A stretch of DNA of 64,000 nt from the NCBI GenBank assembly GCA_012103075.1, contig JAAVLQ010000001.1, forward strand, positions 806,001-870,000. The letters are read 5' to 3'. How positions within the stretch are numbered: position 1 is the first letter of the stretch; each line of letters opens with the position of its first letter. Shown here in pieces: positions 44,144 to 44,955 of the stretch. The notes under the pieces were generated by a model. It saw only the letters and a program-made list of their open reading frames with translations. It searched no databases and was not told where the DNA came from. Made by a program: the position numbers and the translations under genes. The stretch comes from Brucella cytisi (GTDB taxonomy: Bacteria; Pseudomonadota; Alphaproteobacteria; Rhizobiales; Rhizobiaceae).

Positions 44144-44892
44144 TCAGTGCGACGGATGCAGTGCATCGTTGAGATACATGCAGGTCAACATAGTAAATAC
44201 GTAAGCCTGAATAACCGCCATCAGCAATTCGAGCGCGGTCAGCGCGACAGTCATTGCAAGCGGCAGCACAGCAGTCAGTATGCCGAGCGTTCCGAGGCTG
44301 CCCAGCCCGATGACGAAACCAGCAAAAACCTTCAGCGTAATGTGGCCTGCAAGCATGACGGCGAACAGACGAACTGAATGACTGACTGGACGCGAGATAT
44401 AAGACATGATCTCGATCGGCACGATGATCGGCGCCAGTAGCGCCGGCACGCCTGCGGGCATGAACAGTCGAAAGAACCTGTACCCATGCCGAACGAGACC
44501 GTAGATCGTGACCGTCAGAAAGACGAGCATGGCCAGCGCAAAGGTTACGATAATGTGGCTCGTTACCGTGAAGGCATAGGGAAACATGCCAATCAGATTG
44601 GCAAACAGGATGAACAGAAACAGCGAGAAGACAAGGGGAAGAAGGTCATGCCTTTTTCACCGGCGTTCTCGCGCAATGTCTTAGACACGAATTCGTAGAG
44701 GATTTCGGCCGAGGCTTGCCAGCGTCCCGGCACGACGGTGCTTCTGCGGGACGACAGGAACATGAACGCTCCCGCACTCAGCACAGTCAACACCATGAAT
44801 AGTGCCGAATTGGTGAAGGCAACCGGCTGACCACCGATTTCGCCAAGTTCAACGATAGGCTTGATTGCGAATTGTTCGATCGGCCCAGCCAT
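44144..44892 (-). CDS. atpB: F-type ATP synthase subunit a, stand-alone copy (one frameshift)
   Basis: Proton half-channel subunit of Fo, about 249 aa: LQ-free N-terminus MAGPIEQFAIKPIVELGEIG, FVSKTLRENAGEKGMTFFPL, the core SRPVSHSVRLFAVMLAGHIT with the essential Arg (E. coli R210), and LQAY-type end AVIQAYVFTMLTCMYLNDAL. The Asn normally four residues after that Arg is Val (codon GTC). One C is missing opposite GGGG 44635-44638. No atpI, atpE or atpF lies beside it; neighbours are sugE and an MBL gene. It is preceded by its own guanidine-II-like element. May be a paralogue of the main atpB. Confidence 0.85.
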
Positions 44893-44955
44893 AGGACACC
44901 CTCCTATGGGGCCGTCCCCGATGCGAACACTGGCACGGGTCGTCCCGCGCGGCCC
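44892..44955 (-). promoter_or_regulatory. Second guanidine-II (mini-ykkC)-like riboswitch, upstream of atpB
   Basis: On the atpB strand: GCGCGGG-ACGA-CCCGTGC (44950 to 44933, one G-T pair) and GGGG-ACGG-CCCC (44919 to 44908), linked by 13 bases; both loops fit ACGR flanked by GG/CC. Directly after, TAGGA-GGGTG-TCCTA (44906 to 44892) hides the ribosome-binding site AGGAGG and touches the start codon. Same architecture as the sugE element. Second stem is short (4 bp), hence lower confidence. Confidence 0.72.

Follow-up and report, generated by a model that had tools for sequence, protein, structure and literature searches.

A guanidine-II riboswitch precedes atpB2, a stand-alone second gene for subunit a of the ATP synthase, in a 64,000-nucleotide (nt) stretch of the Brucella cytisi genome (assembly GCA_012103075.1, contig JAAVLQ010000001.1, positions 806,001 to 870,000 of the forward strand; hereafter the window). 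The regulatory link between guanidine-II and AtpB2 is well supported by comparison of loci within the family and beyond it. We propose, with a probability of about 0.55, that the RNA acts as a translational ON switch, through which a replacement stator adapted to guanidinium, a small toxic ion, is made. The preliminary description of this locus, made from the sequence alone, could not know that the link reaches many genera, nor that further genes for ion or proton transport stand behind this switch in some genomes.

The minus strand of the window carries, in order, an aptamer, the atpB-type gene (44892-44144), a second aptamer and sugE (Table 1). Search by cmscan with the Rfam model RF01068 revealed a score of 34.9 bits for the upstream aptamer (44951-44907) against a cut-off of 32, with an expectation value (E) of 0.0029 over 64 kilobases (kb) and 4227 families. 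A second covariance model, R1, which was trained on 22 sugE-linked aptamers including the window's own sugE copy, recovered the atpB-side aptamer at E = 4.1e-5 in a search of the window, and up to E = 1 gave no further match there beyond the atpB and sugE copies. The covariance-model search suggested by the preliminary description is thus significant with both models. The ACGA and ACGG hairpins that it had read are present, P1 at 44951-44932 with loop ACGA and P2 at 44920-44907 with loop ACGG. The linker between the two blocks (44931-44921) is 11 nt, and becomes 13, the spacing given before, when each stem's unpaired outer base is counted in. On the 3' side of P2, CATAGGAgggtgTCCTATG puts the AGGAGG Shine-Dalgarno site and the start codon at 44892 into a stem of 7 base pairs (bp), CATAGGA(gggtg)TCCTATG, the first base of which is common to the 3' arm of P2; this is the hairpin hiding the ribosome site that had been described. 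The similar layout reported some 850 bases away, before sugE, is also found, as the sugE aptamer scores 43.4 bits and starts 834 nt from the atpB-side one. A whole-genome search revealed no third guanidine-II copy in the source genome. The folding energy of the window leader has a z of -0.69; folding energy alone is no proof, and the support for this leader is comparative. A chance motif was rejected on the basis of the RF01068 score, the R1 match and the covarying pairs in relatives.

AtpB2 and its aptamer recur in the family and in named genomes, and an oddity of the window alone was rejected. DNA encoding MAGPIEQF was searched in 394 family genomes and matched in 46 genomes of 21 genera. 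Among the 43 contexts retrieved outside the genus, one (L140/G117) was dropped as a chance match in another gene (an 11-amino-acid (aa) frame). The stand-alone AtpB2 gene is therefore present in at least 45 of the 394 genomes, a lower bound as the pattern was strict. A same-strand aptamer over the Rfam cut-off lies 19-225 nt upstream in 41 of the 42 remaining contexts, and the other one (L135/G103) has an aptamer found by R1 only (E = 0.007). In the same-genus genomes of the sample the aptamer lies 14-15 nt from AtpB2, over the Rfam cut-off in G000 and G020 and by R1 only in G032 (L046, E = 0.0005). Taken together, all 45 AtpB2 genes of the family sample have guanidine-II upstream at 14-225 nt, 43 of them over the Rfam cut-off.

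A scan of named genomes with the motif HSVRLFAVM gave 95 stretches in 80 loci, from which three chance matches (L225, L229 and L267) and four loci whose upstream part is cut or broken (L223, L246, L248 and L251) were excluded. An upstream aptamer was found at 69 of the 73 scorable loci, with the starts of L271, L286, L287, L292, L293 and L298 left unassigned by the rule and their aptamers placed by hand from the frame length. The named loci and the sampled genomes overlap in species, so that their counts are not independent. Hosts within the family are Shinella, Ensifer, Aminobacter, Mycoplana, Phyllobacterium, Mesorhizobium, Rhizobium, Agrobacterium, Pseudaminobacter, Pseudochrobactrum and Brucella (Ochrobactrum-type species); outside the family, the scan found the motif in Afipia, Tardiphaga, Devosia, Kaistia and Reyranella. 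Whole-genome searches of 12 named genomes found a guanidine-II match in 11, over the cut-off in 10. No aptamer was found at the housekeeping atp loci (0/21, up to E = 1). In a class-wide sample the AtpB2 motif was seen in none of 385 genomes besides the window's own (1/386), and AtpB2 looks rare outside the family. One record titled Bacillus subtilis strain SK6B4 (L277) holds a Pseudochrobactrum-like AtpB2 locus and is mislabelled or contaminated; it is among the three Pseudochrobactrum-type loci without an aptamer.

In the window's genus the arrangement is AtpB2, then an aptamer, then sugE, and an intact 249-aa atpB2 occupies the corresponding place in relatives. All 32 other loci of the genus have a sugE match. 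Of their AtpB2 genes, 16 are near-complete, including that of L063, which is interrupted close to the start codon end; one (L060) is broken and four (L040, L042, L053 and L062) are remnants, while 11 loci gave no AtpB2 match. The paired hairpins, for which the preliminary description had pointed to orthologous loci, are present at 16 of 16 near-complete same-genus AtpB2 loci, as they are at 45 of 45 in the family sample. L040, L042 and L061, where atpB2 is gone or a short remnant, keep two aptamers about 200 nt apart before sugE, forming an accidental tandem riboswitch.

Comparison of the leaders indicates that the RNA itself is under selection. The aptamer pattern was fitted to 119 AtpB2 leaders and matched 114, the misses being four aptamer-less loci and the cut locus L248. 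The pattern demanded the innermost pairs and the loop ACG, so these prove nothing alone; where several placements were possible, the best-paired P1 was chosen. The resulting 61 distinct AtpB2-linked aptamers have ACGR loops and linkers of 9-14 nt. Pairs 2-6 of P1 are paired in 57-60 of the 61 through GC, AU, CG and GU exchanges, and pair 2 of P2 is GC, CG or GU in all 61, indicating that the stems are held by two-sided compensatory change.

The expression platforms fall into short and long leaders. In short leaders the start codon lies 14-22 nt past the aptamer, and in each of those folded (the window, L125 and L142) it is within a hairpin. The L125 platform, CCCGGCCTC/GAGGCCGGG, recruits the 3' arm of P2, therefore the hairpin and P2 are mutually exclusive. 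In long leaders 95-229 nt separate the aptamer from atpB2. A stem of at least 5 bp directly after P2, often ATCTC...GAGAT, is found in 36 of 52 distinct long leaders (200 shuffles: mean 3.2, maximum 9), and in 29 of 52 the first frame after the hairpin stops no more than 20 nt from the start of atpB2 (300 shuffles: mean 5.2, maximum 11). Only this hairpin and the end position of the upstream frame beat the shuffles. A conserved upstream peptide was rejected, since Ensifer-type leaders differ in length by numbers not divisible by three and several of the frames end prematurely. We infer that the long-leader switch frees the ribosome site of the upstream frame, with atpB2 translationally coupled to that frame. 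In the Devosia loci L231, L269 and L287 the leader between the aptamer and atpB2 encodes a hydrophobic frame of 57-71 aa, two 45-aa stretches of which gave no Pfam match.

AtpB2 is a genuine but distinct F-type subunit a (AtpB; PF00119, NF004482), in agreement with the variant Fo proton-channel subunit of the preliminary description. It resembles the family in exceeding the model cut-offs and in keeping Arg210 and half-channel residues, and differs from the housekeeping AtpB in being stand-alone, separate in the tree, changed to Val214 and placed behind guanidine-II. Intact relatives score 368.9 and 371.2 bits with NF004482, against a cut-off of 225. Two subunit-a genes are present in 38 of 38 family genomes checked, 35 with exactly two matches and three (G000, G130 and G335) with pieces fitting two genes, and in nine of nine named genomes. 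The identity between AtpB2 and the housekeeping copy of the same genome is 57-68% (20 genomes). A single branch divides 48 AtpB2 from the main copies of 27 genomes, with a bootstrap of 98 and a Shimodaira-Hasegawa-like approximate likelihood-ratio support of 96. The main copies include those of Devosia, Afipia, Tardiphaga, Reyranella and Kaistia, and two main rows are long-branched; the trees were made from chosen subsets, with the frame-shifted L156 and the short L126 left out. Within the AtpB2 subtree, Reyranella stands beside G081 and Tardiphaga beside G182 with moderate support. Because the branching follows the species order poorly, it suggests that AtpB2 was transferred between lineages. 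The median ratio of nonsynonymous to synonymous substitution rates (dN/dS) is 0.168 for AtpB2 (193 pairs, from a random 25% sample) and 0.138 for the housekeeping copies (170 pairs), both at dS of 0.15-1.5, indicating that AtpB2 is under purifying selection.

In the numbering of Escherichia coli subunit a, the residues Glu196, Ser199, Arg210 and Gln252 are retained in 48 of 48 AtpB2, and positions 219 and 245 carry His and Glu as in the housekeeping copies. The residue Asn214 is replaced by Val in all 48, of which 18 were found through a pattern that includes the Val. Among AtpB2 picked independently of residue 214, Val214 is present in 51 of 51, compared with none of 20 housekeeping copies (19 Asn, 1 Ser). 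Other fixed differences are at 207, 248 and 251. His207, a seeming mark of AtpB2 within the family set, was rejected as such, as it is also found in the Afipia and Tardiphaga housekeeping copies and in chain 5dn6, which we take to be Paracoccus-type; Asn214 to Val is the only change relied on here. Papers are cited here by their PubMed Central identifiers and are represented by excerpts, to which all statements about them refer. In one of them (PMC8754430), aN214 is located in the input half-channel near aR210 and the leading cD61, and aN214L most strongly altered how the transient dwells in rotation depend on pH. AtpB2 offers a natural Asn214-to-Val experiment for the debate on the proton half-channel.

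AtpB2 is without a rotor of its own. In 18 of 18 AtpB2 genomes the search for subunit c gave a single match. It exceeds the family cut-off in 17 and, as a broken or partial copy, falls below it in G000; this lone c gene adjoins the housekeeping atpB in all 18. Because there is one c-subunit gene per genome, AtpB2 probably assembles with the housekeeping c-ring. A complete second ATP synthase, of the N-type or driven by Na+, was rejected on the same count, and the alternate-F1F0 model TIGR03306 scores far below its cut-off.

We propose a mechanism for the switch on this basis. Guanidine-II comprises two aptamers that bind guanidine cooperatively and promote translation initiation (PMC12186494). 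By membership in this class, the ligand is very probably guanidinium and the direction ON, and guanidinium would induce atpB2. While guanidinium is absent, the hairpin beside or overlapping P2 would enclose both the start codon and the ribosome site of atpB2; in the long-leader type, the shut site would be that of the short upstream frame running up to atpB2. Upon binding, guanidinium would bridge the ACGR loops of P1 and P2, and P2 would be held, resulting in the opening of the ribosome site and the synthesis of AtpB2. We infer that AtpB2 serves as a replacement, which would take over from the housekeeping copy opposite the single c-ring of the cell. Guanidinium mimics the side chain of Arg210 and could pair with the rotor carboxylate in the half-channel; the Val in place of Asn214 might bar free guanidinium from docking there. 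The ATP synthase could then keep running while SugE/Gdx swaps guanidinium for protons, the stoichiometry of Gdx being one guanidinium out and two protons in (PMC12186494). That guanidinium tolerance is the purpose of AtpB2 is a proposal to which we give even odds.

AtpB2 is one of several kinds of gene found behind guanidine-II in these bacteria. The next gene was recorded for 73 aptamers from a non-random family sample (the best-scoring loci and 40 chosen ones) and is sugE in 41, AtpB2 in nine, ChaA in four, PhaF in one, a small frame in one and another gene in 17. By frame likeness the 17 comprise 11 efflux-type genes of PF05232 and six of DUF1989, with one of each tested by Pfam. Within about 9 kb, the 42 family contexts outside the genus contain a sugE match in eight and a ChaA match in two, and no sugE match in the other 34. 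In Rhizobium, Agrobacterium and Devosia loci (eight read), an aptamer about 1.2-1.7 kb upstream is followed by a ChaA-like cation/proton antiporter gene; loci with such a gene behind guanidine-II are listed in Table 1. Four of four tested are PF01699; for the three tested with NCBIfam the best model is ChaA, below its equivalog cut-off.

In L266, L288 and L296, two further aptamers were found, one before a small frame and one before a divergent gene for K+/H+ antiporter subunit F on the opposite strand of atpB2. These subunits F are 94-97 aa long, and both of those tested exceed the cut-off of NF004812. A Pro is present in four of four stand-alone F copies (L407-L410), at a site where 10 of 10 other MrpF/PhaF of the same five genomes carry Glu or Asp; L407, L408 and L410 lie beside the aptamers of L266, L288 and L296, and the record of L409 matches L317. 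An acidic residue likewise occupies this site in the four solved MrpF chains listed. The MrpF residue discussed in print is D35/D38 (PMC7419157, PMC9568556), in the DR...D stretch; it is kept in the F copies and appears distinct from the Pro site. The literature searched gave no role for the acidic residue replaced by Pro. The linked F copies thus differ by the Pro from their housekeeping relatives in PhaF/MrpF, and ChaA is the corresponding relative of the other linked gene. The same replacement logic would fit this PhaF copy. As a tentative extension, on which we stay somewhat below even odds, guanidinium would act in nature as a poison of the ion paths in rotors and antiporters, against which Alphaproteobacteria would deploy the riboswitch-run tolerant subunits AtpB2 and PhaF together with SugE and the ChaA-like antiporter. 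No family match was obtained for the small frame (about 70 aa) that sits behind an aptamer of its own between chaA and atpB2 (L288:5220-5450 (-), L296 and L317). The PF05232 (chlorhexidine-efflux or proteobacterial antimicrobial compound efflux type) genes behind guanidine-II are those of L083, L094, L315, L316, L323, L326, L335, L342, L345, L348 and L353, with L083 tested by Pfam and the rest assigned by likeness. The DUF1989 (PF09347) genes are those of L090, L319, L320, L333, L338 and L349, with L319 tested and the rest assigned likewise.

Taken singly, the riboswitch is a typical example of its known class, and AtpB2 belongs to a known protein family. Similar to guanidine-II on sugE/gdx, for example E. 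coli gdx (mini-ykkC, RF01068), the RNA has two ACGR hairpins, a linker of 9-14 nt, a downstream ribosome-site hairpin and a score over the curated cut-off; unlike there, its target is a paralogue of a core ATP synthase subunit. Excerpts of PMC12186494, PMC7266159, PMC7736828 and PMC9788540 associate guanidine-II with efflux proteins, carboxylases, deaminases, hydrolases and related metabolism, and do not name atpB as a guanidine riboswitch target. No guanidine riboswitch tied to atpB, ChaA or an antiporter subunit was found among the matches listed; the founding gene tables (PMC5340285, PMC5360189) and supplements lie outside this scope, so absence from print is unproven. Within the same scope, the literature searched made no mention of the switch paired with atpB2, of how widely this pairing occurs, of the single fixed change in the channel or of the parallel single antiporter subunit. 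A likeness exists with the Na+-I riboswitches, which likewise sense a cation and control antiporters and ATP synthase genes (PMC9971707). However, ligand and RNA are different, and ATP synthase complexes are controlled there, compared with one alternative subunit here.

Several observations weigh against the guanidinium-adapted replacement stator. The AtpB2 of three Pseudochrobactrum-type loci and of Shinella daejeonensis has no aptamer found before it; the S. daejeonensis genome is without any guanidine-II match in a whole-genome search, and the sole match of the P. asaccharolyticum genome lies elsewhere, below the cut-off. Among the 32 same-genus loci that retain sugE, 15 have no AtpB2 or a remnant of it and two (L060 and, near the start, L063) have a broken copy; AtpB2 is therefore dispensable. 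A hydrophobic or glycine residue at 214 is also present in other organisms (PMC8754430), so that Val214 is not necessarily a sign of guanidinium. Mutating a set of residues with aN214 among them is reported to have lowered ATP synthase activity (PMC8754430), and Val214 might slow the motor. For free guanidinium acting on FoF1, no paper was found among the matches listed, only biguanides on mitochondrial respiration or ATP synthase. Computation establishes the aptamers with their pairing, the association with AtpB2, the paralogue with its fixed change and the single c gene; ligand binding, expression and activity are predictions.

Four other explanations were weighed. The lowered activity reported for mutants of residues including aN214 (PMC8754430) would suit AtpB2 as a brake, a FoF1 with Val214 that conducts protons more slowly or one-way and so spares the proton-motive force for a guanidinium exporter that takes in two protons per guanidinium; AtpB2 adjoins sugE in the window and its genus. 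This is unlikely in our view, as the other half-channel residues examined are kept and the constraint is close to that of the housekeeping copy, which fits a working channel better than a plug, and sugE is without a match in most family contexts (34 of 42, each of about 9 kb). AtpB2 might instead ease a cation or pH imbalance, from a leak of K+, Na+ or Ca2+ or from the proton influx of the exporter, with guanidinium only as the cue. Guanidine-II also stands before the ChaA-like antiporter in some Rhizobium, Agrobacterium and Devosia loci and before subunit F in three Rhizobium/Agrobacterium-type loci, and Na+-I riboswitches are reported to govern Na+/H+ antiporters and Na+-driven ATP synthases (PMC9971707). 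However, where examined, single subunits rather than whole Mrp or ATP synthase operons lie behind the aptamer, pointing to the replacement of a sensitive part, and antiporter neighbours are exceptional (ChaA in 2 of 42 family contexts). We consider this explanation improbable.

The three same-genus loci that lost atpB2 or keep a remnant and yet retain both aptamers before sugE would be expected if the atpB2 aptamer were a sugE relic, or a relay to that gene. On this view a guanidine-II leader was duplicated and picked up an unrelated gene, and guanidinium has no physiological bearing on ATP synthase. Such an origin is very improbable, since the aptamer is kept at AtpB2 in the 34 contexts without a nearby sugE match, in several families, and the AtpB2-linked aptamers have covarying pairs and ribosome-site hairpins of their own. 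Finally, the gene lies apart from the atp operon, its tested window neighbours being sugE and a metallo-hydrolase, and AtpB2 might act outside FoF1, for instance by conducting protons or guanidinium independently or in concert with SugE. The examined residues facing the c-ring are kept save 214, making this highly unlikely. Subunit a is not known to conduct without the c-ring, which also counts against it.

The findings bear on why several guanidine riboswitch classes are needed and on what guanidinium harms; an excerpt of PMC12186494 describes the export and breakdown of guanidinium and names no target. The conserved spare subunit a behind the switch, invariantly altered next to the catalytic arginine, points to the rotor-stator interface of Fo as a candidate target. 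If the replacement stator proposed here is correct, a bacterium swaps one ATP synthase subunit in response to a metabolite, and the ATP synthase is remodelled subunit by subunit in answer to a small cation. Many soil bacteria with the switch may exchange one part of this motor for another in the presence of guanidinium.

Table 1. Coordinates of the features in the window and of the antiporter genes linked to guanidine-II in other loci
Feature	Position	Strand	Basis
Guanidine-II aptamer before atpB-type gene	44907..44951	-	cmscan RF01068, model R1, loops read directly
Expression platform hairpin CATAGGA/TCCTATG	44890..44908	-	Sequence; minimum free energy and centroid folds
atpB2 N-terminal open frame, 99 aa, starts MAGPIEQF	44593..44892	-	NF004482 E = 1.1e-26; PF00119 over cut-off
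atpB2 C-terminal open frame, 147 aa, with SHSVRLFAVMLAGH	44144..44587	-	NF004482 E = 4.9e-67; PF00119
Guanidine-II aptamer before sugE	44073..44117	-	RF01068 43.4 bits; R1 E = 1.3e-11
sugE-type small multidrug resistance gene, 105 aa	43727..44044	-	NF008512 SugE 129.8 bits, cut-off 126; PF00893
ChaA-like antiporter behind guanidine-II	L253:1933-3087, L293:3061-4278, L296, L271, L070, L317, L321, L324		

The atpB2 of the window is in two pieces, which are out of frame with each other and were analysed unjoined; they score 37.2 and 144.6 bits with PF00119, against a cut-off of 33.9. The housekeeping atpB of the same assembly is likewise fragmented and the completeness of the assembly is 85.8%, therefore the frame break in atpB2 may well be an assembly error. 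The sugE of the window is the probable guanidinium exporter Gdx, whose role is described in PMC12186494. The divergent neighbour at 45084-46094 (+) is a metallo-beta-lactamase-fold gene, in more than one frame in this assembly, the main piece of which is nearest to the AidB quorum-quenching lactonases, below the model cut-off. In addition, a gene for a small membrane protein of the YnfA/UPF0060 type lies at 47104-47550 (-), 3 kb from sugE.

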